The notes beneath the pieces are model-generated. The model was not told the DNA's origin. It was given only the letters and a program-made list of their open reading frames with translations, and made no database searches. From Tribonema minus (Eukaryota > Sar > Xanthophyceae > Tribonematales > Tribonemataceae), in NCBI GenBank assembly GCA_017506865.1, contig JAFCMP010000514.1:310001-374000 (forward strand): 64,000 bases of DNA. The letters are read 5' to 3'. The first letter of the stretch is position 1; each line of letters begins with the position of its first letter. Below are positions 4,401 to 62,755 of this stretch, piece after piece. The translations under genes were made by a program, and so were the position numbers.

Positions 4401-7400
4401 AAGGCGCCGGGCCCGGTGCCGATTGAAGTTGAGCTCAGTTGAAGTACGCCGCCGGCGCGCACAATAAGCGCGCCCCAGCCGGCCAGCGCACCGCCATCTT
4501 CAACTTCAAGAGTGACGTTGTCAATCACCAGATCCGCGCCTGCGGGCTGAGCGCTGAGGGTGGCGCCGCTGAGCACTGTCACCACGCCGGTGCCGTCGCC
4601 AGCAGTTACAGATGTAACTGCCATGGAGGCGACAGTGCTCAGCGTGGCGCTCCCGGCCGCGTGCAGCGCTGGGAACGAGGCGTCGGAGGGTGCCGAGAGG
4701 AGCGTCATCGCAGTGGTGCCGGCTGCGCATGTTGAAGTTCCTGTGTTGTCCGCCTGCGTGTGTGTGTGGCATGTGCCATCAGGGACCATGAATGGGATGA
4801 ATTGAGCGGGATCGTGTGAGCACATGGTATGACGGGTATATATTGCAGCGGTGTAGGAATATGGGGTATTACTGGTAGTTCAAGAAGAGCTCAGGATCTT
4901 TCGCAGGTTGCTCTTGGAAGTACTGGTTCAAACCAAGTTGCTCTTGGAAGCTTCTTTGCAAGTTCTGGCAGGTTCTGTCATTTTCTGAAGAAGTTTTTGC
5001 TCCCACGCGTCGGGAAGCAATTGTGTTTGGTCTGATAAATGATCACTTCTCTGCTTTCGCACCGGCCAGCGTCCCCTGCTTCCTCTGCTGCTATGCACTG
5101 GTAGCGTTGTGCCTGCCTGCATAGCCCAGCTTTCCAACGCGGCATGGGGATGATGGAATACCCAGTTGGATGAAAATCAGACAACACCAACGTAAAGGCA
5201 TGTAGACATGTGGCGGTTTGTGCATGAGTGTAAACTCAGTGTGGAGCTACTTGAGTGCAAATGCTGTCAACACTAAATGTCGTGTGGCCTTAGAAGGTGA
5301 GTAGCAGCATCACATTGAGGTGTTGGTAGGCGAGCAAGCACATGCAACTGCACCTTTCCCTTACTGGGCTCCATCACAGAATACGCAAATGCAGTCTTTG
5401 AACACGTTGTGCCTCCTGAAGCACAACGGAAAGTGCCGCAAAGTCGCCATCAGCCTAATATTGGGGGCGCCAGGGCCATTATCACAGTGACAGATGCGCA
5501 CGAAAACTACTACAGTGGCTCGTCAACTTGATGCATTGCACAACACTGCTCAACCGACATACACTCATCGTTCAACAACTGTGCTGCAAAGCAGCCTTCT
5601 CTTGAACAGTCCAAGTTGAAGTTGGCACATCACTCACCGACAGCACCCCTTGCCAGTACACACTGCCAGCAGCAGCGCACGCCACCCCCCCACCGCTCGC
5701 CGTGTCCCCCCCCCTCGCCTGCATAACCCCCGCAAACCCCCCCGCGCCATCATCATGCGCTGCTATGCGCCCCCCCGAACCCCCCTGCCCCCCCGTCCCA
5801 CACGAATCCCCGCCATTCGCCACCAATATGCCACTGCCAGTAAGTGCTCCGCTGTTGACAGTGCTCAGCCAGATGCTGCCCCCGGCGCCGCCGCCGCCGC
5901 CGGGGCAGGCGCCCGCTGCGCCGCGCGCGCTGACCGTTCCGCTTATGGACATCGCTGTGGCATGGCGTGCATCATGAAGGCATGTATTGTGATGGGCTTG
6001 CACGTGCACATTAGTGTTGGATTTATGTGTATGTTGGTGCTGCTGGTGATGAGCCGTGCTGCAGTGGCAGCAGCGCTCACCTCCAGATGTTGGCAGCAGC
6101 GCGCCCCTCTGCCGCAATGCCGGCGGCTGCTGCGCTTGCACACTTGAATACCAGCACAGGGCGCTGTCCTCCCGCACAGGAAAGTACTACGTGTGCTGGT
6201 CGACACGAACAAGTGGTCGAGATCAAAACATCCTTGGCATGCCCTCATTCACGAAAGTCACTACTCCTGACTTCCACCATCTGCACTCAGAAACCAACAC
6301 GTTTTTCTGTTTTGTCTCACCATCAGCAGTGATATGCAGCGCTCCCCCGCCAGCCCCCCCCGCAGCGCGCGCCGTGCCCCCCCCGCCGCTCCCCCCTCGA
6401 GCCGGAAACAGAGGATCCCCATACGCACTTAACCCCCCCACATGGCCCCCTCCATACCCCGCATCATACTTCGAAGCACCGGCCAGAGGGCCTTGCGCCA
6501 GCACACGCCCCCCCGCCGCACCCCCTGCGTACCCCCCCCCGTCGGCACTGATGACGCCCCCAGCCTGCACGTCAACACTCGCGGCGGTTATCACGATCGC
6601 GCCGCCGCTGCCCGCATCGTCGACCGTCGTGACGGAACCGCCGGACGCCACGGTTAGCGACGCGAACGCGTACGCAGCAGCGGCGGCGCCAGCAGTGCGC
6701 GAAGCGGCGCCTAGCGTCAGCGCTCCGCTCGCGCCGACAGTTACGCTCGTAACTGCCGAAATTTGACCGCCGCTGAGCACTGCTAAGCGCGCCCCCGCAG
6801 GCAGTGACAGCGCTCCGCCTTGCGGCGTCAGCACTGATCCTGTGGAGACAAGGATGTCAGCGCTGCCGTCGCAGTTCGCGGAAAACGCCGCCAGCGAGAC
6901 GGAGCAAGCGGAGAGCATCAGCGCGCCGCCGCCGCGCAATGTGACAGTGCTCAGAGACAGGGTCTGGGCGCCGACCCACGCCGCGGTGTGCGAGCCTGCA
7001 GCACCGCTCAGCGACACCATAGTTTTCATCGGTGTGAACTGCGTCAGGGACGCTGCGCCGGAAGGCGGCGTGTTGTCGACGACCAGCGCCTGCGAGGCAG
7101 CGCTCGTGTCGTGCAGAAACACGGTGCCGGGGCCCGCAGGAGCGTCGCCTCCGCCGCTCAAGAACTTCAACACGTCCTCCCTGTTGGAGTTTTGAACAGG
7201 CGCAGAGTCGCCGAGAGCGGAGTACGTTTGGCCGCCGCCGGCTGCGGAGACTTCGGTGAGCGGCAGGGAGGCTGCGTTGGCGCTGGTGATGGCGATGCGC
7301 CCGCCGCTGCCGGCGCCGCCCCAGCCTCCGCTGAAGGCGCTGTTTTGAGCGGGGGGGGGAGGGGGGGGGGGGGGGGTAGCATTGAGCGGTGGGGGGGGCA

Positions 7401-10400
7401 CCGGGTGGGAGGGGGGGGGGGTAGGATAAAGAGCGGTAGGGGGGAGGGGGGGGGGGGAGGGGGGCACTCGGATTAGGGTTGGAGCTGAGCTCATACTTCA
7501 CATTCGAAGCATGTGTAGGGGGCAGCGCTCAGGGAGGTGGCTAGGCGAAACCATTTGCGAGTGGCATGATAGGATGTACATGTAGTCCGTCATACCCCAG
7601 CATGTTGCTGGCACAACAGTATATTACCGCTGCACGTGCTGCCAAGCGCGCACTGTCAGCTTGTTACGTGCTGTGCTACGGATGCGCGGTCCTTCATCAG
7701 AACCCACTAACACACACACGGGCTTGCTGCATGATACAGCCAATGCTGAACAATAAACAGAGCTCTCTGAAGCATACAACGACTCCCACTGCCACAAGCA
7801 TGGTGAACATCTCAGCTAGTGAAATCGGTGCATATTCTTAGAGCTATGTGTATAACTATACATACATACCTGCCGGCCCCTCCGACAGCCCTGATCTTGC
7901 CACTGCCTGTGAGCGTGCCGGCAACAGTCAGGGAGATGCTCCCCCCTGCCCCTCCCCCCGCACCAGGCCCCCTCGCTGCATGGCCCTGAAAGCAACACAC
8001 GCATTAGAGTGGCAGTTACATTAGTTTAACAAATGCAGAGCAGTGGAGGTGATGCATATGTGCTGCTGAGCTGATGGACCGACAAATGGCGCTTGCTGCC
8101 ATCAACCCTTTTTTTTTTTCAATTGTGTACCTTGAAGCTTTTATTGCCATTGACAAGTGCTCTGAGGTATGTGCATGCTTTCAAGTATGAATTAAACTTG
8201 GCAATGCGAATAGTCTCTGCATGGCGCCACCGCTGAGAAATCTCGGTGAAGTCGGGCTGTTATTGCAGCATGATCACAATTGCAAGTTCCGCCGCTCGCT
8301 TGCAAGGCACGACAAAAGACAGGCCGCGCACACCTTAATCCCAATCCTTACATAAAAAACGGCAAACCCTACAACCCAATCTGTGCGCCATTCTGCTCGC
8401 CCCTCTGAACCCTAGCCCTAATCCTAGCCTACCCCTACCCCTAACCTCCTTAACTTCAACCCTAATCCTGATCCTAATCCTAACCCTAGCCTGTAACCAC
8501 TCACATCCGCGGAAAGCACCCCGTTGCACGCCATGGCCCCGCCGACGATGACCTTCACAGCGCCCCCCCCCGCACCCCCCACGTGGCTCTGCGACGCCCC
8601 ACCTCCACTGCCCCATGCAGATGGTGCCATGACATCACCGTAAGGGTTGCCTACGGTGCCGGTAGTGGCGAAGCCCTGTGCGCCGTAGCCACCGTGGCTG
8701 CCGCCAGATGCGCCACCGGCGCCGCTGGCTCCTCCTCCAGGCCCCTGCAGTGGAGCGCAGGAAAGGGATGATGGCACTGACGGGTTAGAACTAGGGTTAG
8801 ATTTAGGTTAGGGTTAGGGGTAACGTTGGGTTAGTGTTAAGCTGAAGGCTCCTCCTCTAGGCCCCTACAGCGCAAAGGAATACCGTCATTGAAAGGTTAG
8901 GACCAGAATTAGGTTGGGGCTAGTTTAGGGTTAAGGCCAGGGTAGGGTTAAGCTGAATTCAGTTGTTTGGTAAAGGATCACTGAGGCAATGATGCCATGA
9001 CGCATGGGGTTGCAGCCCTTTCATCAAGCCCACAGTCGGTTGTTTGGTGCACAGAGGCTCTGGCATCACCGAGACTCTGACATCAGAAACAGGCCCTTCA
9101 CAAGAAACCTACAACGCGGGCTGCAACATGGTCGCCGAAATTAGAGGCAGCTGAACTCAGCTCCACCCGGTGCCATACCTCAGAAGTACCTCTGCACACA
9201 CATTGACCTTCACATACATCAGCCAGCACTCGACCTACACACGTTACAACGCATCTTGCGGGGGCCAGCTGTCCCCTCAAGAATCAATTTGACAATAATA
9301 TGACCATGATTGGTGAGGCTTTGCACACTCACCGCGCCCGCCGCCGCACCGCCCAACGCCACCGGCGCAGCGCCGCCATACCCCGTCGCGTCCGCATGCA
9401 CCTTGCCCGCCGCCGCAACCGTCAAGTCACCTTCAACTTGAAGTACGACCGCGGGCGCGCCCGCCGCCGCCGCAAACGCCACTCCCCCACCAACATCCAG
9501 CGTTGAGAATGTGTAACTGCCAGCAGCAGCGCTCAGCCCCACTGCGCCGGTCTCCGTCAAGTTGAGCGCTGCCCCAGCGGTTACTGATAGCGCGAGGGTG
9601 TTGGCGATGGCGGCGCCGCCGGTCAGGGCCAGCGTAACGGGGCCCAGTGCGAAGGGCGATGGCAGCGTGATGCGCGCTGCGTCTGTGGCGGTGACGCTGC
9701 CGGTGGCATCGCCTGCAGTGCTCAGCACAGAATCGCCGCACGCAATGAACATTGTGGGTGAGTGTCTGAGCTTGAAATATTGCTCGCGGCGGTGTTGTGT
9801 GGGAGAGTTGCCCGTGGCAGTTGTGAGGAGGGGCAGGCATCGGTCAGCTATGCGAAAGCAGCGCTCAGCAATGTGACATTAGTGTTTGCTACTCAATCGA
9901 CATCTAGTTTATCAGTGGAAGTGCCTCGAAGTGAACGACACTTGTGGACCTGAGGACTAAAACAGTATGTGTGTATATGCATGCCCTCGGATTACATGTA
10001 TATACACAACTCAAACTTGATGCACAGGAAAAGCTTACATACGTTGCGGGCTATTGTGCAGCACATGGTGCGGCCTGACAGGTAAAGAATATCATTGCCA
10101 TAGTGGCCTTGCACGTGTCAGCGACTATGCAATGCTGAGCTATTATGCTGCGCATGGCCTCCAACTTCAACCCTAGCAAAGGTGATGCCGCTTTCTAATA
10201 CCTACCTCATGCCGCTCTCGAATACCTATCCCATTCCGGCAGCGACGGTACATACATACTTGAAGTATAGGCTCATGTCATGCCTCCGCCACGATGCACA
10301 GAGAACACAGTACTTGCATTGAAGTCACTCATAGCGGAACATCTCAAGCACATGCCCTGACACAGTACAAGTGGTACCTGTAAGTTCCGAAGTGATGGCG

Positions 10401-23000: not shown

Positions 23001-25311
23001 GTGACCGGGATCGGCGATGCCCTGAATGATCATGTCACTCAAGTGACCGAAACTGGCAATGCTGTGGATGATTTGTAACTACCTATAGTCTACTGCAGTA
23101 TGCATGGAATGCTTCGACAAAAACAAAGCAGTAATTTCTGTGAGTAGTTTTTCAAGTACAAGTAAAAGGAACATGATCATGTGCACACAACATTCCTGTG
23201 CATTGCGGACTCCAACGTGTCATGATGGCAGTCCATAGCCATCACTACACACACAGTGTGCTACTTCGTTGCTGCGACTTGTCACCAACTCTGCCACTGC
23301 GTCCGGCAGACCGTGAGAATAACAGCGTCACGACCTCAGTCACTTGATGAGTCACTTGATGATGCACTTTTGCTGTTGAAGTAGTAGTTTCAAATTTCAT
23401 GCTATGAAACTCATATGCGTGAGCATGTGACATGTCCCTATTGTTTTGATGCTTCTACAGGCAGAGCGAGAGAAGTACAGGGTGAGATCCACGTTGCTGG
23501 AGGCAGAGGTGGTCAAGGCGCGTCAGCAGTTGGACGATGCAACAGAGCTCAATGAGAGGTAAGCACACATGACAGGCACATCACCAACGTGTATGACCAT
23601 GCACCTACCTACATTGTGCTATATTGTATATGCTTGATGGCTGTGGTTGTATTCATTCGTTGTACAGAGAAGCATCACACTTGCAAACACAGGTCTGCGC
23701 ATGTGTGCACTTGAATATGCTTGCTGGCTGATGATCTATACGAAACTGCTTTGGAACAGTTACACAATTGGATTCGGAAACAGTACATGACGCTTCAGAT
23801 TGTGGCGGAGACAAGGTGTGCGCTGCAGCATTGCCGCATTGCATGCCTCCGCACAACTTGCAGTGCCGCTGCAGCGTTCGCGCCCTCTGCAGTGCGCACA
23901 CGCCTCACTGCACCGTGCAGTACGTACGCATTGCAACTTCAAACCCAGCTCAAGCCATACTCGCCACAGCCCTCACTACCGCCGCCTCTCTGCCTGGGCC
24001 ACCCCCCCAACCACCCAGGCTGACAGCGGAGAACCGGCAGTTACGCGCAGGCATCGCAGCAGCGCCTAGGCCCTCCGCTCCCGACGCTGCCGCCAGCGAC
24101 GCCATGGCAGCGGCGGCGCGCGCTGCGCAGCGTGCGCAGGCGGATCTGACGGCGAAAGTGGCGGCGCTGAGGCAGGAGCGGGAGGGGTTGCTGGGGGAGT
24201 TGGAGGGGGCGAGGGCGGGGTTGCAGCGCGCTAGGGAGGACACGGCGCTGGAGGCGCGGAGGCGGCGCGCCACGCGCGCGCAGTGGGATGCCGACGTTGC
24301 GCGACTGGAGCAGTGAGTGCGCAGTTGAAGCACATTGGGGATCAGTGGCCGTTGAAGTAGCAGCGGGTGCAGTTGAAGCAGACCTAAATGCGCAGTGGGA
24401 CTCTGACGTTGCGCGCTTGGAGTGATGTGAAGTTGAAGTAGGGGATCAGTGCCTGTTGAAGTAGGGTAGCAGCGGGTGCAAATGAAGCAGACCTATTTGC
24501 GCAACGGGACGCTGAAGTCGCGCGTTTGGAGCAGTGACTGCAGTTGAAGTACATGAGGGATCAGTGGCCGTTGAAGTAGGGGAGCAGCGGGTGCAGATAA
24601 AGCAGTCCTGAAGGGCTCCTGAAAGGGCAATGAGCGCAGCTGAAGCGCAGCAGCATGCCAACATTGCACACTTGGAGCAGCGACTGCGCACTTGAAGTTC
24701 TGTAGGGAAAAGCCAGTGATTGCAAGTTGGTGTAGGAGAGCACTGAGGAGGACAGTAACTGTCAAGTGAGGGAGCAAGAGAGCAGTGAGTGCGCAGTTGA
24801 AGAGGAGCACTGTGTGTAGTTTAAGTAGAAGAGTGGAGTTCGACTAGGAGTAGCAGTATGTTTGAGTATTGTCTGCATGTCACACAAACCCAGAGAGGAC
24901 CGCTGGCTGTACGAGCCTGCTAGAGCGGACACTTTCACTTTTCTGGTCACCATCGCGTCACGTCACACACACGCACTTGCACTTGTGCCTCCCATGTGTT
25001 GCAGGGAGCTGGACGATCAGCAGCGCGATCACAAAACGCAGATGGCCGAGGCACACCGGCAGCTCCGTAAGGCGCAGGAGCGCCTGCGCGCATCGCAACA
25101 GTTACGCACGCAGAAACCGCCGCCGCCGCCGTCGCTTTTGCAGCAGCGGCAACAGCGGCAGGGTCGACCTCAGCGACCACAAGGGGGCGCCAAGGGGGTA
25201 GGGGGGGGCGCGCGAAGTAGCAGGGCAGTGGTCATGCGGGATAGGGCGGAGGAAGAGCGGCAGCGGGTGTGGGCGCGCGCGCTGCAGTGCATGGACCTGT
25301 GGGGCATCTGA
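20043..25311 (+). CDS. Plastid-targeted-type coiled-coil protein (464 aa, 6 exons)
   Basis: Exons: 20043-20504, 21668-21790, 22357-22467, 23461-23558, 24019-24312, 25005-25311. All phases match and the total is 1395 nt. Residues 1-25 are a signal peptide with a hydrophobic core, followed by F26-T-P-P and a Ser/Arg/Ala-rich stretch. This fits the bipartite signal plus transit peptide used to enter secondary plastids, where F follows the cleavage site. An in-frame upstream ATG (19992) would bury the signal peptide and was not chosen. From about residue 105 almost to 400 the protein is Glu/Gln/Lys/Arg/Leu-rich heptad-like coiled coil (AEAD, QKAE-like, LEAEV, LRQEREGLLGELEGARAGL). The tail has a P-rich and basic Gln-rich stretch and ends in LQCMDLWGI. 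Exon 3 uses a GC donor. Function unknown; a structural or tethering role inside the plastid or its membranes is possible. Confidence 0.8.
20634..21149. mobile_element. Small non-autonomous TIR DNA transposon (MITE-like) in intron 1 of the coiled-coil gene
   Basis: The terminal inverted repeats are perfect over at least 30 bases: 20634-20663 against 21120-21149, beginning CCGTCTCATCGATAATC. Both ends are flanked by TA (20632-20633 and 21150-21151), as expected for TA target-site duplication (Tc1/mariner- or PIF-like insertion). The 516-base interior holds no transposase-like reading frame. The matched ends suggest a fairly recent insertion. Confidence 0.8.
24279..24690 (+). repeat. Tandem copies of exon 5 end plus 5' splice region inside intron 5
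   Basis: The end of exon 5 (from gcgcagtggga through the donor gtgagt) and about 75 bases of intron recur at about 24390, 24499 and, more diverged, about 24640. The period is near 110 bases. Each copy keeps the order gcgca(g/a)(t/c)ggga, gttgcgcg-like, ttggag, then gttgaag, gatcagtg, agcgggtgca. Confidence 0.8.
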
Positions 25312-33340: not shown

Positions 33341-33700
33341 CAGCAGCATCAACGTGCAGGGGCAGATTATTCAAAGCTTAAGCTGCTGGAGGCCGTTGCT
33401 ACGGAGTACGCAAGCAGGATGGTGGTCCCCGGAGCAGCCGTTAGTATAGCATGAAAATGCATAACACAGGCACGCATACGCTCAGCATTCTCGGCAGCGC
33501 TCCACATGACGTACTCCCTGCGTGTGATGACACACAACATGTGGCTGAGTCTACAGCAGGAAAATCTGTCGACAGATGGACGAGGATGTAGTGGGTGGGA
33601 TGATGCCTTTGGGCGACGTCATTTACTACATGTGGCTGTCATGGAGACACTTTCAAATTGTCACATGGCATATAGATTTCATACCATGTATAAGCTTTAA
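33341..33700 (+). pseudogene. Gene remnant A (LLEAVATEYASRM type)
   Basis: A short frame reads KLLEAVATEYASRMVVPGAA, and matching DNA continues to about 33700 through cggcagcgctccacatg, gacacac, atggagacactttcaaattgtcaca and a closing atacag-like block. The same order occurs in remnant B at 34310-34620, about 960 bases downstream. The frames are short and interrupted, so both look like pieces of one decayed duplicated host gene. The parent family is not recognised. Confidence 0.45.
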
Positions 33701-34309
33701 TTGACGAATCATCTGGGCTTTCTGGCGCCCTGGGCGAGAATTAACAAAAAGAACAGCATATGCAGTGCACGCAGCGACTCTGGCATCGCTCTAGAGCTGC
33801 TGCAGATGTGCATTTGGCTTTACTACATGCTCCCATGCCTGACCTCATTTCAAGCCATGAAGGTGCACGCACCTGGCCTAATAAGTCAGCAGGCAGATCT
33901 TCTCCCTTTCAGACCGGCAGCTCGCTTTCGGTTGACATGCGCCGCTTGAACTTGAAGTTGAAGGAAGCCGCCTACTCGACAGCGTCACCTGCATCGACAC
34001 CACGCAAACGCGTACTTCAAGTCTTTAACACCTCAAGTCAGTACAAAATCGACACAGTGGTGATAGTTTTGGGGACAGGATGCCCCCTTTCTGCAGTGCC
34101 GCTTGCAAATGGTGGGGGTGCAGCCTTGCTCCAGATCTCGAGACATGCAGCCTGCACGCTTTTGCCTCCAGTTGACCCACATACAGAGATTTGCCCCCCC
34201 CCCCCCTTCAATGTACATACATTCTGGTCATTATGATCAGAATTGCTACAAACTTCAAGTTGCCACCTTGGCAATCCGAGTCTGGTCATTTGGCAGCATC
34301 GGGGAGCAC
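33701..34309. other. Spacer between the gene remnants; no gene called
   Basis: No coding signal is supported here. It includes a run of Cs near 34195-34206 and the usual ACTTCAA/TTGAAGT words near 33948-34022. Confidence 0.5.
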
Positions 34310-34620
34310 TGGCCCGGGGGCGGAAGCTGCTGGAGGCTGTGGCGACGGAGTGTACCAGCAGGATGTCAGTGCCCGGAGGAGCGCGCCCTGAAGCTCTTAA
34401 GGGCATCGCCCTGGCGTGCTTACGCTCGGAACTGTCGGCAGCGCTCCATGTGGCCGTGTCATGACACACATGGCAGAATCCAGGGGGCCCCCGGGGGGGG
34501 GCACATGGAGGAGGACGTAGGGGATCCCGAGATGCCATTTGGTGGCGGCGGCGTTTAAGCGGTTGACGTTGAAACACTTTCAGACTGCCACAAGACATAC
34601 AGATTCCGTACAGCATATTG
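34310..34620 (+). pseudogene. Gene remnant B (LLEAVATECTSRM type)
   Basis: It reads KLLEAVATECTSRMSVPGG, then LKGIALACLRSELSAALHVA, and is homologous to remnant A at 33341-33700. It retains more of the frame than A but stops soon after. The coding-like bias and the parallel copy indicate a former exon; the parent gene is not identified. Confidence 0.45.
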
Positions 34621-34918: not shown

Positions 34919-36538
34919 ATGACGATCTTGGCTGCATTACAGACCCTGCGCAAATTTCCTTCTCTGACACAAGCGCTGCAGCGGGCAGAAGCCGACATTG
35001 TTGCGGACAGGGTGAGTGAGGGTGCTTGTGTGCTCTATCAGTTGGCAATATGTGTGGGCCGATGCATGCGCTGCAAGGCCGCTACTCACCTATCAGTCTA
35101 ACCCTATGACAACTTCCTCGCACCATTTTGAATTGCAGGAGAAAGCATGCCAGTGACAGTTATGGTAGGCAATTTACTAGCATGGAGTATTGTCAAGCAG
35201 GACTCAGTCTGGCCAGTGTCCGTTTGTGCAAAGGATGCTCACACCAGCTCCTTACTAATTATGCAATCCTTGTGACCAGGCAAAACGGCAAGCTGAGAAG
35301 GACGCCTGGGAAAGCACTGCCGTGCAGGAGCAGGCCAAACTGCAAGCTGAGAAGGACGCCTGGGAAAGCACTGCCAAGCATCAGCAGGCACAACTGCAAG
35401 CTGAGAACTTGAAGGACGCCTGGGAAAGCACTGCCAAGAATGAGCACGCACAACTGCAAGCCGAGAAGGACGCCTGGGAAAGTGCAGCCAATAAGCTTGT
35501 ACGCAGCACATCCCCTGCACCCATCAAGCTCAACATCGGCGGCAAGCGGTTTGAGACTTCTGCAACGACACTGAGGTATGGTGAGCTGCGGCATATGCGA
35601 CATCTACATGCAGCACGTGATGATGCAGTTGTGTCACAGTGATCTCTACCCGCATGCGTGCATGCATGTGTCGACACCTGTGGAACTGACGATGCTACAC
35701 ACTTAACAATCTGATGATTCAGATGTGCAATGCTGAGGCCAAATTACACATGACATTTTCCTGTTGACTTGCCTGCATCCTGAAGTCGACTCTTTGTTTC
35801 ATGTGCCCTGGCAGGTCCACCGAGGGTTCCTTTTTCTCCGCCATGCTCAGTGGACGCTGGGAGCTGCAGGCGTGCGAGGACGGCAGCTACTTCATCGACC
35901 GCGATCCGAGTACTTTTCCGCACATACTCAACTACCTGCGAGGCATAGAGCTGGATATCGAGCTCTTTGCCAAGGCAGAGTTGGCAGCGCTGAGGCATGA
36001 GGCAGACTTTTATGGGCTCACAGACCTGGCAGACGCTTTGGCGCCTCATGCGGTGCTTTCGCCTGGGCCACTTTCGCCTGGGCCGAACTACACGTTGTCT
36101 GCCGATCAGTGCAAGGCGACGAAATCAAACCTCAACGGCTGGGGCAGCTACGAGACTGCCATTGTGCTGGGGCCAAAGCTGGTGGCTGACGTGGCACTTC
36201 CCGTGTGCACCAGTGGTAAGCACATCATGATAGGCGCCGCCTCGTTAGACATCAGCCAGACACAAGCAGATGCTTTCAAGCATCATGGCTTTTATTGCAG
36301 CGCTAGAAGCGGCATGCTGTACGCCCAAGGAGGCATTTCAGACAAGGCATATGGAGCAGACATTGGACCAGGTTCCACTGTGGGTGTGCTCATGGATGCT
36401 GCTGGCAACCTCTCCTTTATTGTGAATGGCGTGAACGAGGGAGTAGCCTACGCAGCTGCTGCCATCGGCCACGCGCCTCTGCGCTTGGTTGTGGTTATTT
36501 ACTCAGCGGCTGGCACAGTGGAGCTGCTGTCGCCATAA
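34919..36538 (+). CDS. BTB/T1 plus SPRY-like protein, paralogue 3 with expanded coiled coil (370 aa)
   Basis: Exons: 34919-35011, 35280-35575, 35815-36538; phases match. It has the same plan as paralogue 1: a first exon of 31 codons ending AEADIVADR, a T1/BTB domain (IKLNIGGKRFETSATTL, DGSYFIDRDP, ILNYLRG, DFYGLTDL) and a SPRY-like domain (IMIGAASLDI, GSTVGVLMD, LSFIVNG, GVAYAA). The difference is in exon 2. The coiled-coil motif LQAEKDAWESTA, present once in paralogues 1 and 2, occurs four times in tandem (about 19-residue unit, some copies with small changes such as AENLKDAW), lengthening the helix before the T1 domain. A short tandem insert FRLGP-like also occurs before the SPRY part (LSPGPLSPGP). 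An in-frame ATG at 34826 is less likely by comparison with paralogue 1. Confidence 0.8.
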
Positions 36539-41957: not shown

Positions 41958-43045
41958 GCGACTTGAGACCTCACCAGCAGCAACATCTTCCTCGGCAAGC
42001 CCATTGTTCCTAGAGCTCCGTGCCAATCAAATATTGCAGCCATAGGTTCATTGCCCAGCTTTTTTCTGACTGTGCGATAATAAATGTAGGCGACTTGAGA
42101 ACTTGGCCGCAGCGCCATCGCCCTCTGCAAGCATCAATCAACACGAAACAACTGCCTGGAAAAGCTTAGCGAGGTACGGTACATTGGTCGGCTTTTTCTC
42201 CAGTCCAATCAACACGAAACGTTTTCCTGATAAAGCTTGGCGAGGTACATTGGCCGGCATTTTCAACTTGGCTGTAACTAAAGTGGGAGCGACTTGAGAG
42301 CTCGCCTGCAGCGCCATTGCCCTTGGCAAGCCCATCGCCATCAGCGCTCCATTTAAATTAATTTGGCACAACTGTATCAAAATACTTAACAAGGTACATT
42401 GAGTGCCTTTCTTCAACATGGCGATAACGACATGGGAGCAAATTGAGAGCTCGCCTGCAGCGCCATCTCCCTCGGCAAGCAGCGCTCCATTCCAACTTAT
42501 GGCACACTCGTAACGAAATCCTGAACGAGGAACGTAAATTGGCGTTTCCAATGTAGCGATAACGAAATGGGGGCGACTTGAGAGCTCGCCTGCAGCGCTG
42601 TCGCCCTCGGCAAGCAGCGCTCCATGCCAATAAAAATGGCACAGCTTGATCATCACTAGGTGACGTAATTTGGCTTTTTTTCAACCTACCGATAAAAAAA
42701 TGCGAGGACTTTGAAACTCGCCTGCAGCGCCATCGTCCTCGGCAAACCCATCACCATTAGAGCTCCACTCCAGCTGCCGGGCACAACTAAATTATAAAGC
42801 TCAACGAGCTACATCCATTAGCTTTTTCAAATGAGCGATGAAGAAAAGTAGACTTCAAAGCTTGCACGCAGCGCCATCTCAGTCGGCAAGCAGCGCTCCA
42901 TTCCAATGAACATGGACAACTGTATCGCAAACTTAAGCAAGGTCGATATTCCCGAAAACGGAATGGGAGCGACTTTGAGAGCTCGCCTGCGGCGCAGTCT
43001 TCCCTCGGCAAGCCCATCGCCAGCAGCGCTCCAGTCCAATTAACA
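41958..43045. repeat. Diverged tandem array, eight units with a conserved core
   Basis: Cores start at about 41958, 42090, 42289, 42438, 42573, 42702, 42849 and 42969, so spacing is 120-199 bases. Each core reads approximately gcgacttgagagctcgcc, then tgcagcgccatcgccctcgg, then caagcagcgctcca. Linkers are AT-rich and poorly conserved but often hold cgataacgaaatg just before the core. In the better copies, ggagcg at the start and cgctcc at the end are complementary, so each core could fold as a stem-loop. One minus-strand frame (42138-42656) stays open across four units, but in different phases per unit. Nature unknown: degenerate satellite, structured RNA units, or relics of a repeated exon. 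Confidence 0.75.
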
Positions 43046-44187
43046 TGACACAACGTTATCGACAACGCTAACGAGGTAGGTTGATCGCGTTCGTCAGTAC
43101 ACAGCGATAGTGACTATACTGTCCAGCTCACCAGTTTTTTGGCGGCTTCCTTAACGCCAGCAGCAAGCAGCGCGCTCCGATCCACTACGATAGCGCCTAT
43201 CGAGACCGATCAATGACGGAAACTCGTTCGGATTGATTGCGTCCTGTAGTCCCAAAGTCTCGCTAGAGTAGATTTTTTGACAACTTCAACGTCGTCGAAC
43301 AACTTGAAGTGTGGAAACCCATGCAGCAGGTGGAGGGTACGAGGCAATCACCTTGGCGGGTCCTCGATCTTGGGGATCCCCAAGCCTCGATGCTAATGGA
43401 TAGCTTTACGAGACCCTGACCCCAATTCCGGCGATTTTTAGGCTTGCCCTAGTCGGTTTTCCCTGGCGCAAACCCTAGCAGCAGCGTGGATGCTGGCGCA
43501 CGCTGCACTCCACAGCAGGCGACAGCGAGACGTGATCTAGTCGCCTTAGATACAGTCGTGCTAGCCTACCGAGCGCTTCAACCCGGCGTGGGCGCTAGCG
43601 GCCAAGAAACCATGTTTCGTGTTGGGACCTCTCGGTGCGAACAAAAGCGTTGATGCACACCACTCCTGCTAGACGCGGTGCGCTGCATCGCTACCGCTAC
43701 AGTTGAGGCACTATACATTCATGCTAGCTGCAGCCTGACCCAGCGTCGCCGCCGTGCCTTACAGCGCGCGCCATGTTCACTTTCTCAATAAAACTAAAAA
43801 AGTTGCGCACGCTGAAAACTTATCAACTCCACTGTAACACCATGGTTTGCGGCGCTGATGGGCTTGATGGATAGCCCCTGCTACCCTTGATAGAATTATG
43901 CATGGGTTTGGCCTAACGCCATTGCCATCTTGGTGCTAGCTTAGGAAGAACTGATTTTTGATTTCTGTTTTTAACCCGTTCGTGAGGTGATGAGCTTTTT
44001 GGGCCGAACGGATGCATAGTTTTGTAGCCCTGTGTGCATACATGAGTTCCCCTTAAGAAACCTACAGCTAACTCCTCAGCTGTGATGAGTTGATTCCTTT
44101 GGCGTGAACAGTGTCAAAATAAAAAAAGTGTGCGCGCGCGCTCGCGAACCGAAGAAAAAAACGCCGGAAAATCAGGGTTAGGGCCTC
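43046..44187. other. Intergenic; no feature supported
   Basis: No open frame of note. There are short A-rich blocks (aataaaactaaaaaagttgcgc near 43790, aaaataaaaaaagtgtgcgc near 44117) that resemble each other, and a small inverted ACTTCAA/TTGAAGT pair near 43282-43313. Confidence 0.45.
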
Positions 44188-50800: not shown

Positions 50801-53800
50801 TATGCATGGGTGGTGGCGCGTGGGTTAAGATGAGCGCACCGTGGTGTCGTATAACTTGGAACAGGCTTATGGCATTCCTCAGTAAGGGGATGGCAGCCCA
50901 GCGGTGCTTCAGGCAGGCTTCCGAGATGTGCAGAGGACCAGCAAAGTGCACAAGCTGTTTTCTTGGTGTGCATGCGGAATTCCGCAAGACAGCATTAACG
51001 GCCTAGGCGTCAGTGTCACCTCAGCTTGTTAGCACTACAGTACCAACCATGGTAACTATCCACGCTGCTTGCGAAAGAAGGAGAACGCATATGAATGCCT
51101 GTGTCAGCAGGCCAATCGGCGCCTCAACTTTGTCGTGTGTTGCCAACCGTGCACACATGCTGAAGCGAATGCTACCGTTCCCCATCAACAGAGCAGGAAT
51201 GGCCTTGCACAGCCCTGCCAAATGCGTTGTGCCGCTGCACACCGCCCATGCCAACTTCACATGGGACATGAACAAGGTCACTACTTACCGAAACCAACAC
51301 CTCACGCCATATATTCTGAACTGTCATTCTCAGTAGATGTGTATTGAAGCAGATCGGTTGACGTGTCAGTACCGTGAGCGTCTAATCCCCCAGGCAAATC
51401 TGGTGTGGGAATGAGCGAATCACGTACACATGTACCTGGCAAAGAATTTGTGTGCAATGACCAAAGCGTACCTGTGTGACCCCTGTCATCACGCCGTGTC
51501 AGCCAAGTCACGAGACCGTCAAGGCCGCTTGCGAGCTGCGCTGGCTCTACAGGTTTGCCTTGCGCCAGTGCTTCGGGCGCAGCGGCCTCTGCGAGGGCGC
51601 TGGCGCGGAGCGCGGGCGGAATGTGCGGCACGAGAACGTTTCCCAGGTTCTTGCACAGGGGGCACATAAACTCTCCGCCGGGCACGTTGATGGCAACGCG
51701 TCCATCGAACGCCTGCAGAGGCGGTTACAAAGGTAAGGGGTAGGTATTGAGTTTGCAAAGCGCTTCCTGCATTGTGGTTGAATACAGGCCGCACACCATT
51801 CTAAATGTACAAGGGCAGCAGCACACCAAAATAGCTACTGCCAGTGGACCTGACAGGCGGTGATCGCACTTGAGAAACAGCCAGACGCAGCAAACTCATT
51901 GACTTCAGTCAGGGCTGCAAATGGGCCTTCATGTGGTGTCCGCAGCCATTTCAGCGAATGGGGTTGATGCGTGCAGCAAACCCCAACTTCACAACCTCAA
52001 GTTCACAGTGAGTCGCTGTTCCACTGGTCCACATGGCGGACCAAAAAAGCGCATGTTGCCAGGGCCAACTTTGAGCCTTCCGCAGGGGTGATGTACCTGA
52101 ATGTATGTGATTGTGCGGCTCGTACAGCAGCGTACGGTACGCCTCCATGCAGCGCTCGTGCGCAACAAGTCGAAACCGTCAGCACTTCATAATGCTGGGT
52201 GACGCACCTGATTGGTGTTGTGCCGCTCGCGCAGCGTCGCGCGGTACGCCTCGATGCAGTGCGGTGCACAGCAAGTCAGAATATTCTACAGCAAACTTCA
52301 AATTAACTTCCACTCTGACAGTGGGTGACGCACCTGATTCATGTTGTGCCGCTCGCGCAGCGTTGCGCGGTACGCCTCCAGCAGCGCTTGTACGCAACAA
52401 GTTGAAACCGTCAACCACAACATGAATTTCAACTGCACAACTGGGTGACGCACCTGATTCATGTTGTGCCGCTCGCGCAGCGTCGTGCGGTACGCCTCCA
52501 TGCAGCACTCATGTGCTGCAGCAAGTCAAAACATTCTACAGCAAACTTCAAATTAACTTCAACTCTGATAGTGGGTGACGCACCTGATTCATGTTGTGCC
52601 GCTCGCGCAGCGTCGCGCGGTACGCCTCCATGCAGTGCGCGTGCGCGGCGTGGCCGCAGAGCCCCACGTGCAGCCGCAGCCGCCCCCACCGCTGCCACGA
52701 GAACTCTGCCAGGGGCTCCAGAATGGGGTATCCCTCTGCTGAGTGCAGACTGACCCAGCCAGGGCCCACAGGGGACTCCGTCACACGCGCTCGCCTGCCA
52801 AACTGCTTGTTGCAACACAAACATAGGAGTTGAGATCTGACAACAGTTTATTGATGCTGACGGCAGCAGTTGGGTGCTTGTGCCCCACATTTAATAATAA
52901 TATGATGTACCTACCGCCTGCAGCACTGATGATAGCATTCAAGTAATCGTCGCAGACTCAGGTACTTGAGTTCACCATTCACAAATGAGGTTGTGTACTA
53001 CAGTAAGTGTGTTGTGATGCAGCCGAGACCCGCAGCTGAGTCTGTTGCCCGCACCCGCCAATTTGACGTGCGCATTGCAACTGACAGGGAGCGACATGAT
53101 GCAGTTGAGCACCTTGAAGGAAAAAAGCAGTGTGCGGTAAGCACCGCACGAGTGGCATTGTTCAAAACTTGGTGATGACTTGTCCTATTAGCGAAGTACA
53201 AATTGTACTGTAGGCGTACCGTCATGTCGCTATTTAAGCCGGCGGGGCACCCAATTAAAACAGAAGTTTGTATACATTGGACAAGCAAATTGAATCAAGC
53301 GTTTGTACCCCCAGGCTTAAACTAGGCTCGCCTGTGTCAGACACCATTCAGCACCACACAACAGGCCCCATACGATTACTGTTTTGCTAGGGCACCGCGG
53401 CGGTTTTCCAGGTCAAGGTGTTGTTGAGCTTTCGCGTGAAAACAGCCTTTGCACGAAGCTGAAGCAGGCTCAGCGGGCCGCAGAGGTTGGATGGCAGTGC
53501 TGCATCACAGATATCTTCAAGGGGGCACCCTCTGCCACTCGTGCAGTGCAATAACAGCAAATTACAGCTCAGCGTGCAGTGCAAGCAGCTACATGCCTCA
53601 CCAGCAAACAGGGGGGGGTCGGCTTAAGTTGAATCCAGCAAATGTATTACCCAGGCTTAAATAGTTCTGGAGCCAAATATCGTTTTAATTACGTGCCCCG
53701 CCGGCTTACATAGAGACATGACGGTATACTCAGAGCGGACAATGTGCTGAACATACAAGCATGGCGACAGGGACGACTTTGACGCACCCAACTGCCATTG

Positions 53801-60067: not shown

Positions 60068-62755
60068 TGAGCATGGCTGCGTTGAGTGTGTGCGCCTACG
60101 AGACGTGTGATAAAAAGGGTGGTGGTGGCGCAGCTGATCTGTACCCTGCCCCTCCCCTGATTTGATTGCAGCACACAGTGCTCAGAGAAGTGTTTGCAAC
60201 TGCAGAAGGGGGCCGTTGCAGGCTGGCGCAAGCGCCGCCTCGACTACTGTTCCGCCTCACCAACTCATGAGTGAGCAAGTGAGTAGATGAGTGCAAGTCT
60301 CCTTGTTCTGTACCGTCGCTGTTGAAGTTCAAGGAGCGAATGTGCCAGCCCCCCTTCCGTACAGTCTACATTGCAACAGGATATCTACACAAAGCATGAG
60401 CCAAGCTTTCAATCGCTATCTGGCTGACATGCACACACCGCCGCTTGCCCTGCCAACCACCACCAGCGGTTACTATGCCTCAACCTGCCTCGTCTGCGCG
60501 CGTCCTTTGCCACAGCGCCATCAACTTGCAGTGTCATCAACATGACACTGAGTGAGTACACGAGTGATCAAGTGACTCCATAGCCCACCAAGTTGCGCAC
60601 GGCCTCGCTGTGTGAGCTCAACGCATCCAGCCATGCCAGGGTGAGGGAGTATATGAGTATACGAGTGAGCAAGTGAGTCCACAGCCCTCCAACCTGCACA
60701 GGCCCTTGCTGCGTGAGCCGAATGCGTCCAGCCACGCCACAATGAGTGAGTATTTGAGTATACGAGTGAGCAAGTGAGTCCACAGTCCACTGACCTGCAC
60801 AGGCCCTCGCTGCGTGAGCCGAATGCGTCCAGCCACGCCAGCGCCCGCCCCAGCCTCTCCTCGCGCTGCAAGTGGGTCTTGGGGGCTGCGCTGGCCAGAA
60901 GCCCCTGCGCCTTGAGCTTATTCACGTTCTCCACCACCTGGCGTGAGGTGCGCAGCGCGTCACAACGGTCAATGTGGATTACGACAAGTGTACGCATGAA
61001 TGGTGCGCCACACTTGGGTACTGCGTTGTTGAACGTGGCTGAGAGTGTGGAAGAAGTGGGAGAATGGCGCTCGACACATAACGTTCTGCTGACTAATGCA
61101 GACCACAATGCACGCAAGGCCTTTGAAAAAGCGGAAGGCACCATGGGTTCCCATTCCACGCTCGCCACGGCGCCACCCATCTGTCATGCATCAAAGCATT
61201 CGTCTAGAAGTTTGCATAGGCCCCCTGCCTGTGCCCACTGCGGCATACGTTGCAGATTTCCTTGATTGAAAAAAGAAATTCACAAGTACATCATATCAGC
61301 TACAGCTGTGCATTTGAGCAGGTCATCTGAGTGACTGTATGGTCTCTTTCCGTCAGGCCACTCATCCACGATTTGAGACTGCAGTATTTGAAGTACAGCA
61401 AAAAATGCGGCAGCGCTCGATCAACAAGCTTGATGAACAGGACACAGTACGCGTACAGCACGCCACGGCCATCATACCGCACGGGCGGCCCAGCACCGCT
61501 CATCTGCTCCAGGTGCGAGCCCATGTGACAGTTACGACAGTTACGTCAGTTACAGACGCACCTCTGACGCGCTTCCCTCCACAATGAGCGCATGGCCGCC
61601 CTCATCGACCATGCGCGCCAGCGCCGCCGCCGTGCGCACGCCCACGCTCAGCTGCACCAGCACGCTGATCACGTGGTCGAACGTGTGCACGTCATCGTTG
61701 TGCAGGCGCACGACGAGCACTGGCGCGCCCCCCGCCGCCCCCTCCCCCTCCCCCTCCACCGCCGCCGCTGCAGATTTAGATGGCTTCAGCCACCGGTTCC
61801 GTTCCGCGCCCTCGAAGCTGTGCACGCAATCCCACACCACTGTGGTGGCAAAATCCAATATGGCGCGCACCGTTGCCCTCGCGCCAGTGAGCAGCAGCGG
61901 CGGCAGCGATGCCAAGGGGTCCACTGTTGCTGCGGCGGCGCTGTGCGTGGGGCAGCAGCCGTCTGTGGCCCATGCCTCCTCGTCGCCGCAGTCGCAGCAG
62001 CCGCCGGCGTTGGTGCGGTGGAAGAAGACCTTGTGGCCGACGTGGGAGCTCTGGCGGAAGCATGAGTCACACTGTTGAAGTTGCACGGCAGGGAAGGAAG
62101 GGAAATGGTTAGGGTTGATAATGGCATGGATGAGCGCGACACAGATGCACAAGGCGCCTGCAACTTCTCGAGTGGTTGTTTCCTATGAATGAAACCAGCA
62201 ACAGGCGGAAAAACAAATACAGGAGGTAGTGCGACAAGGCAGCTCTTGCAGAGTGCAGGTGCAGTGGCCACGTGTGGCTGATGTGAGGCTCAAGACCGGT
62301 CAGGAGTGCAGCATGAATGTGTAGATTGCTCAGCACAGTGTCATCAGCCGCTCTGAAATGCAACTCAGCGCAGCGTGCATGTCGCCGCTCGCATGACAGC
62401 ATGACAGGACTGCGCGCACCTGGACTGCGGTGGGGTCGCACTGGCACGTCAGGCAGTTCCAGGCGATGTCGCCGCGCTTGAACACATAGCCACATATCCT
62501 CCTGGTGGTGCTCCCTTGCAATCCGTCCAAGCACCTTGGGTTGCCGCTGGCCAGCCAGTTCAACCACGACGTGATGGAATCCAGAGGCTGATGGTCCAGG
62601 ACAGCAGCAACCAGTGCTTGCAGCAACGCCTCGTTGACGGCATCGCCGGCGTAAACCTCTGCTGCGACAATTGGTGGATCCGGCAGCACGGTCGGCGCCT
62701 CTGGCTGCCAGAGGACGGTGCCAGTCACCCCGTGCAGCACAGCCTTCTGAGCCAT
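47802..62755 (-). CDS. UBR1: UBR1-type N-recognin E3 ubiquitin ligase (2427 aa, 12 exons)
   Basis: Exons in gene order: 62755-62420, 62071-61562, 60937-60795, 59993-59355, 59044-58450, 57957-57793, 57159-56640, 56221-55407, 55073-54891, 52802-52584, 51712-51472, 50719-47802. All phases match, total 7284 nt. The protein binds destabilising N-terminal residues and ubiquitinates the carrier protein. The UBR box (residues about 88-155: CGYVFKRG, C.TC, CDSCF, H.GH, CCDCGD.EAW) is the type-1 site. The ClpS-like region (about 230-275, VVRLHNDDVHTFDHVI) is the type-2 site. Middle blocks match the family: FGFSVQIFTTPSLVQLL, HVFSDLEYVL, MVGLWVRNG, ELIHRLAV..CTHSE. The RING spans exons 9-11 (CIVC, CGHAAHAHC, CPLCKNL). 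The C-terminal UAIN part has VCLLCGR, LYLDEHGEEDVGLRRGRPLYLS. It is somewhat longer than human UBR1 because of Ala/Gly-rich and acidic inserts in exons 8 and 12. An in-frame upstream ATG lies at 62932; 62755 has the better context. Confidence 0.93.
52085..52640 (-). repeat. Five tandem copies of the end of UBR1 exon 10 with its 5' splice site
   Basis: The real exon end (MEAYRATLRERHNMNQ then GT) and the start of intron 10 are repeated at a period of about 112-129 bases, with donors near 52583, 52456, 52332, 52208 and, degraded, 52095. Copies 1 to 3 keep the last 15 exon bases and the donor GTGCGTCACCC unchanged; copy 4 has a few changes and copy 5 many. Read as cassette exons, the extra copies would not keep the frame from the available acceptors, so they are most simply intron sequence. 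Confidence 0.88.
53219..53724. mobile_element. Small non-autonomous TIR DNA transposon (MITE-like) in UBR1 intron 9
   Basis: The inverted ends CCGTCATGTCGCTATTTAAG and partner match over more than 32 bases with about two differences (53219-53250 against 53693-53724). TA flanks both ends (53217-53218, 53725-53726). The 506-base interior has no transposase-like frame. The end sequence is related to that of the element at 20634-21149 (CCGTC..., then AAGCC or AAGGCC), which suggests one superfamily. Confidence 0.8.
60012..60065. repeat. (AGC)18 trinucleotide repeat in UBR1 intron 3
   Basis: Eighteen uninterrupted AGC units on the plus strand, read as (GCT)18 in the UBR1 transcript. It ends 18 bases upstream of the first base of exon 4 and takes the place of the pyrimidine tract. 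Confidence 0.95.
60547..60840 (-). repeat. Three tandem copies of the end of UBR1 exon 3 with its 5' splice site
   Basis: The exon 3 end (AWLDAFGSRSEGLCR then GT) plus about 55 intron bases recurs with a period near 100-104 bases. Copy B differs from the true exon end by about one base and keeps a GT after GTGCAG (donor GTTGGAGG). Copy C is diverged (WLDALSSHSEAVRN) and its donor is lost (GCGCAA followed by CTTGG). Confidence 0.87.

Follow-up and report, generated by a model that had tools for sequence, protein, structure and literature searches.

Introns of Tribonema minus are lengthened at both ends by local duplications that occur in patchy excess, and the five-copy array in an intron of a UBR1/PRT6-like gene is one example. 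The best explanation, to which we assign a probability of about 0.7, is that frequent, patchy and roughly random local duplications put copies of exon ends into introns. The array looks like a by-product of such small events, not the birth of a new intron. It lies in the window, the whole 64,000-nucleotide stretch analysed here (positions 310,001 to 374,000 of contig JAFCMP010000514.1, with a GC content of 0.578), and all positions below are window positions.

Positions 52086-52646 of the minus strand hold one exon end and four intronic copies of the exon tail plus its donor, with donor-to-donor spacings of 130, 120, 126 and 111 bp. The array and its neighbours are laid out as follows.

52584-52802, minus strand: exon of the UBR1/PRT6-family gene whose 3' end is copied, encoding the first half of the RING-H2
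52573-52646, minus strand: copy 1, formed by the true exon end with its own donor (GT at 52583-52582)
52443-52516, minus strand: copy 2, donor at 52453, with the 11-mer and score of copy 1
52323-52395, minus strand: copy 3, donor at 52333, with the 11-mer and score of copy 1
52197-52270, minus strand: copy 4, donor at 52207, with the 11-mer and score of copy 1
52086-52163, minus strand: copy 5, the most diverged, donor at 52096 (GTACATCACCC), scoring 3.55 against 6.93
51713-52583, minus strand: intron containing the array, with an in-frame stop 34 nt past the first donor on read-through
51517-51712, minus strand: next exon, encoding the second half of the RING-H2 (FMCPLC)

The original prediction of five copies holds in its coordinates, in strand and in the number of copies; the donors lie at 52583, 52453, 52333, 52207 and 52096. 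Where the source exon begins is uncertain: two predictions place its 5' end at 52802 or 52738, and the open frame reaches 52847. Compared with the 50 bases of exon tail in copy 1, copy 2 matched at 49 of 50 alignment columns, copy 3 at 48 of 51, copy 4 at 47 of 50 and copy 5 at 37 of 54. The first 11 donor bases were identical across copies 1–4 and matched at 9 of 11 positions in copy 5. By our own donor matrix, copies 1–4 share a score of 6.93, whereas the upper quartile for predicted donors is 6.08. When the 20 sampled loci (described below) and the window were shuffled with dinucleotides preserved, no self-matches appeared at the threshold used, which excludes a chance origin of the copies.

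Between the copies, spacer 1 resembled spacer 3 (50 of 54 columns alike) and spacer 2 resembled spacer 4 (27 of 30); spacers 1 and 2, and 2 and 3, were no more alike than shuffled sequences (99 and 108 of 1000), and weaker likeness was seen between spacers 1 and 4 (37 of 51) and 3 and 4 (15 of 18). Because the spacers alternate as A-B-A'-B', the array reads as E-A-E-B-E-A'-E-B'-E, in which the exon end was copied first and a two-unit block was then duplicated. This structure replaces the single gradient of age with distance from the exon that had been proposed. An origin of the copies in faulty assembly is extremely unlikely, because they differ from one another by many substitutions and indels and because comparable arrays occur elsewhere in the assembly at numerous unrelated loci.

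In the minus-strand frames of the region, PRT6_C, zf-UBR and ClpS passed the Pfam cut-off, and a UBR1-like wing fell narrowly short of it (24.8 against 27 bits). When the exon ending at 52584 was joined to the exon starting at 51712, the product contained a RING-H2 that aligned through the junction with the structures of UBR2 and UBR1, UBR2 having one residue more and UBR1 three fewer near the join. Pfam RING models matched this region weakly. As judged by its predicted domains, the host gene is a UBR1/PRT6-family N-recognin. Use of donors 2–5 would carry the transcript past the in-frame stop described above. Protein homology and reading frame therefore point to use of the first, outermost donor, which among the four equally strong donors of the array would be the only one to yield a working protein.

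To describe the wider genome (an assembly of 158 Mb in 554 contigs), we surveyed 20 stretches of 10 kb chosen by position together with the window, 264 kb in total. Exons were predicted with a home-made gene finder, trained on the DNA sequence of the same 264 kb, in which wrong-strand and copy-as-exon errors occur. Borders were counted for exons scoring at least 12 and spanning at least 60 bp, which gave 143 donors and 143 acceptors, and a border was considered covered if a local duplication reached 12 bp or more beyond it in each direction.

Of the 143 borders of each type in this sample, 24 donors and 21 acceptors were covered, and the copy stood on the intron side for 22 and 19 of them, respectively. 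In other words, 41 of 286 sampled predicted borders, or about one in seven, had a local copy of themselves on the intron side, in a patchy distribution. Random circular shifts predicted 9.2 intron-side cases per border type, and none of 500 shifts reached the observed 22 and 19. The original prediction had staked its case on an excess of exon-end copies in introns, and such an excess over random placement is what the 264-kb sample contains. With copies on both sides counted, the totals were 24 donors against 15.2 expected (P 0.008) and 21 acceptors against 15.1 (P 0.062). The richest region, L010, alone supplied 10 of the 24 covered donors; without it, 13 donors and 14 acceptors had intron-side copies against 6.1 expected for each (P 0.002 and 0.004), and the both-sides counts were 14 donors and 16 acceptors against 9.9 each (P 0.084 and 0.022). 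The exceptions to the intron-side rule, two donors and two acceptors, were all kept in the counts. On inspection, the L027 donor lies inside a repeated coding segment and a plus-strand call in L010 lies on the wrong strand of a myosin gene; the remaining two are the L020 and L028 acceptors.

Clusters of local duplication were over-dispersed among random 10-kb regions (22 regions, mean 3.7, variance/mean 3.35, with zero in two). Two regions drawn later at random had none of their 11 borders copied (6 donors, 5 acceptors) and contained one weak duplicate pair, and the locus L039 yielded no border at the threshold. Exon-interior points had the lowest duplication cover (178 of 3996), against 951 of 9367 noncoding points.

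Three further border duplications were found in the window:

60553-60841, minus strand: donor-spanning array of about 2.9 contiguous 101-bp units, presumably also in the UBR1/PRT6-like gene
24278-24612, plus strand: array of roughly 110-bp units spanning a donor (at 24313) of a different gene
8727-8957, minus strand: acceptor-spanning duplication, two copies at a step of 120, the real acceptor adjoining 8744

The expectation that the donor pattern recurs in three other introns was thus borne out for the first two, and the third spans an acceptor instead; telomere-like TTAACCC runs lie between its two copies. The donor of the 60553-60841 array falls outside the sample counts because its exon (60795-60865) scored 9.8, below the cut-off of 12. 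Repeats at 33380-34448, 35273-35494 and 42074-43084 were not clear border cases. The last is a satellite-like array of units of about 140-150 bp, 67-79% alike, without a clear tie to an exon, and that at 35273-35494 consists of 3.8 copies of a 54-bp repeat, a multiple of three that is possibly coding.

We compared four junctions in three genes, chosen for their arrays and recognisable proteins, with solved structures. At all four, protein homology favoured the outermost donor and acceptor. In the L010 myosin gene, the junction FYQ|MCSG has donor copies 113 and 215 bp downstream, and the junction KPNNMK|APSG is preceded by acceptor copies and followed by donor copies; both joins align to myosins without insertion. 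On the minus strand of L024 (about 4914-6135), five copies with alternating flanks succeed the exon tail and donor of a TGS1-like gene, the same two-unit design seen in the UBR1/PRT6-like array. When these copies are skipped, the join aligns to TGS1, with two additional residues immediately ahead of it. Another myosin gene, L041, selected as a relative of L010 and left out of the sample counts, carries its own arrays, always on the intron side, at 5 of its 11 donors and 4 of its 11 acceptors. The exons of the two myosin genes match, their introns hold separate arrays, and their intron positions differ at KPN-K|A, making the pair useful for studying intron turnover.

How far do these copies depend on borders as such? 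Extrapolated from the one-sided rate inside introns, 14.5 cases would be expected for each border type; 22 donors and 19 acceptors were observed. The pooled ratio of border to interior was 1.41 (P 0.033 for donors, 0.138 for acceptors), and duplication cover around donors peaked on the exon side, at 0.208. Both observations would be expected if splicing, R-loops or nicking at exon–intron borders steered the events there. Against this, the ratio without L010 was 1.37 with P values of 0.19 and 0.12, the exon-side extents of the 41 cases were compatible with a uniform distribution (KS P 0.077), and cover around acceptors reached its maximum in the intron (0.204, against 0.188 on the exon side). 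Exon conservation also helps detection. Source and copy differed by fewer substitutions across the exon portion than across the intron portion, both for donors (0.104 against 0.170) and for acceptors (0.115 against 0.184), which is the pattern that a conserved source exon and a freely changing copy would produce. Slow decay of the exon part makes old border copies easier to detect; in simulation the resulting bias averaged 1.12-fold, less than the 1.4-fold seen, and reached 5-fold in the oldest class. The 1.4-fold border rate is thus roughly that of random local duplications of 100-200 bp combined with slower exon decay. A border-directed process is not needed, and we consider it unlikely that one steers the duplications; a modest one may nevertheless contribute.

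The same comparison bears on how the intron arose. Under the AGGT model, the intron that carries the array would itself have been created when an exonic segment with AG|GT was duplicated in tandem. The model has been published with single cases (PMC4974935, in the portion available), and CAG|GTGCG at the border of copies 1–4 supplies the AG|GT that it calls for. The copies, however, are not purely exonic: they continue past the donor into sequence derived from the intron, as far as an entire spacer in the case of spacers 1 and 3, and the border and intron therefore predated the copying. Acceptor-spanning copies are about as common as donor-spanning ones, and intron interiors are duplicated at a similar rate, which together make creation of this intron by such an event very unlikely. 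Duplication across borders as a route for introns, as first proposed, accordingly survives as repeated lengthening in several introns and loses its donor-specific, AGGT-type creation step, acceptors being hit about equally.

Copies of splice sites might also be kept because they serve splicing, through alternative or non-productive transcripts or recursive steps. The four donors of equal strength in the UBR1/PRT6-like array are what such maintained decoys would look like. Among acceptors, AG was kept in 30 of 31 copies, and copy-to-copy divergence was lower in exon-derived than in intron-derived parts (0.149 against 0.236). Among donors, by contrast, GT survived in 29 of 36 copies, roughly as well as the exon sequence around it, and divergence was nearly equal in exon-derived and intron-derived parts (0.127 and 0.140). 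Use of copies 2–5 in the UBR1/PRT6-like array would, moreover, pass the stop codon. The retention of AG and the low copy-to-copy divergence of exon-derived parts fit plain decay poorly. They are only suggestive, since copies within one array are not independent and the alignments are anchored in the exon part. On balance we doubt that the copies are maintained. The same doubt attaches to a composite scheme in which transcription or splicing steers duplication to borders through R-loops or nicks, ladders of donors and acceptors are kept for splicing control, and introns grow by stacking.

Roughly random local duplication also agrees with the character of the duplications themselves. The sample contained 88 clusters in 264 kb, 86 of which matched no other sampled locus. 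The nearest step, measured over 89 clusters in a search confined to 2-2.5 kb, had a median of 137 bp, with 83% of values within 80-220 bp. Planted duplicates of 100-800 bp were recovered in 12 of 12 trials per size and those of 40-60 bp seldom; the upper limit on the step is therefore real and the lower limit partly an artefact. Forty-three of the 88 clusters were contiguous and 45 had a spacer of at least 15 bp. Among 43 testable spacers, 24 had no homologue beside the pair. Some events thus look less like simple slippage in tandem than like the copying of a segment to a nearby site. Telomere-like 8-mers were 1.5 times denser inside clusters than outside, a weak effect. In the first 100 of 5426 hits, TTAGGG arrays were present at the starts of contigs C2 and C3 and at many internal positions.

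Could a mobile, intron-like element (an introner) or another dispersed repeat family have supplied the array? TTGAAGT and its complement ACTTCAA occurred 126 and 101 times in noncoding DNA of the 264-kb sample, against about 12 expected for each (about tenfold), and sense TTGAAGT was densest in the first 50 nt of introns (2.8/kb, against 0.4-1.0/kb further in). A dispersed element of about 85 bp also lies upstream of the array, at 53216-53300. Yet among 41 genome matches to positions 51500-53300 (40 of 63 candidates scored), only the self match touches the array, and all but 2 of the 88 clusters are without a counterpart elsewhere in the sample. A mobile source is therefore highly improbable.

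The 53216-53300 element has at least 40 further genome matches at about 75-96% identity. By eye, a stretch near 53640-53740 resembles it in what looks like inverted orientation, so that the 85 bp may form one terminus of a short inverted-repeat element. Two motifs were considered as signals in their own right and rejected. TTGAAG as a breakpoint signal was found in the first 80 nt of only 17 of 143 introns. The donor motif GTGCGTCACCC, considered as a special element, occurred only 260 times across the genome, against 563 times for its reversed control. Among the first 100 places listed for GTGCGTCACCC there were eight pairs within 400 bp, all eight inside aligned local copies; by eye these are mostly an exon end plus donor, the 11-mer in L033 looks coding, and the pairs serve as illustrations outside the counts.

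Similar contigs were compared for changes in copy number. Contigs C179 and C90 differed at 496 of 8947 aligned bases (5.5%) and showed no difference in array copy number over 9 kb, in a stretch almost free of duplications. The contig sets C179/C90 and C144/C223/C278 carry matching kinase genes and are either diverged haplotypes or large duplications. No second copy of the UBR1-like intron appeared among the scored genome matches to 51500-53300.

Taken together, these observations are consistent with the following course of events. Local duplications, usually with a step of 100-200 bp, would arise often, patchily and roughly at random along the genome, probably through error-prone repair or copying at breaks or nicks, sometimes with filler, a step proposed by analogy. 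A duplication that covers an exon–intron border leaves an extra exon end and splice site inside the intron, as can be read directly from the sequence, and repeated steps, including duplication of a two-unit block, produced the five-copy array. The copies would not be maintained and would decay. The spliceosome would pick the donor adjoining the true exon, favoured by exon context or by the order of transcription. Duplications inside exons would mostly be purged by selection, so that introns grow.

Several known systems resemble this picture in part. The repair-mediated duplications of Pace et al. 2009 (PMC2671141), as far as the available text describes them, are likewise linked copies less than 5 kb apart and tens to hundreds of bases long, some with filler and some over exon–intron borders. 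The same text reports 824 such duplications in the whole human genome, 4 of them with partial exon/intron donors. The copies described here also lie well within 5 kb of their source segments, in a search itself limited to shorter distances. They differ from those duplications in density, with 88 clusters in 264 kb, 41 intron-side border copies and repeated arrays. Published intron gain by tandem duplication shares the tandem duplication of splice signals, and the part of that paper available also mentions an 83-bp intronic tandem duplication and multi-copy cases in fission yeast; unlike the gains it describes, the events here copy existing borders into existing introns.

Genomes with long introns and abundant repeats have been described in chlamydomonadalean green algae. 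In the available text for Haematococcus lacustris (PMC7617258), a 151-Mb assembly contains short repeats organised in tandem and an AACCCT telomere motif, and that for core-Reinhardtinia (PMC8226300) reports long introns whose cause is unexplained, Craig et al. considering the driver of intron length probably ancient. Neither text, in the portions available, ties repeats to exon–intron borders as we do here.

Tandem arrays of the minisatellite type are a general class. About half of our clusters resemble them in being contiguous, and two-unit blocks recur; unlike minisatellites, the units are specific to each locus, often present in just two copies, often spaced, and frequent at exon ends. A limited literature search found no description of border copies at such density. 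Local duplication of splice sites and the class of mechanism are already known. What is new is how densely the copies occur and how donors of equal strength stack up in ladders, and together with the size limit on the step these features deserve specialist attention.

Border copies at about one in seven of the sampled predicted borders offer a concrete route for intron growth. Genes with four to six near-identical donors, of which the first alone would give protein, are natural tests of how the spliceosome makes its choice.
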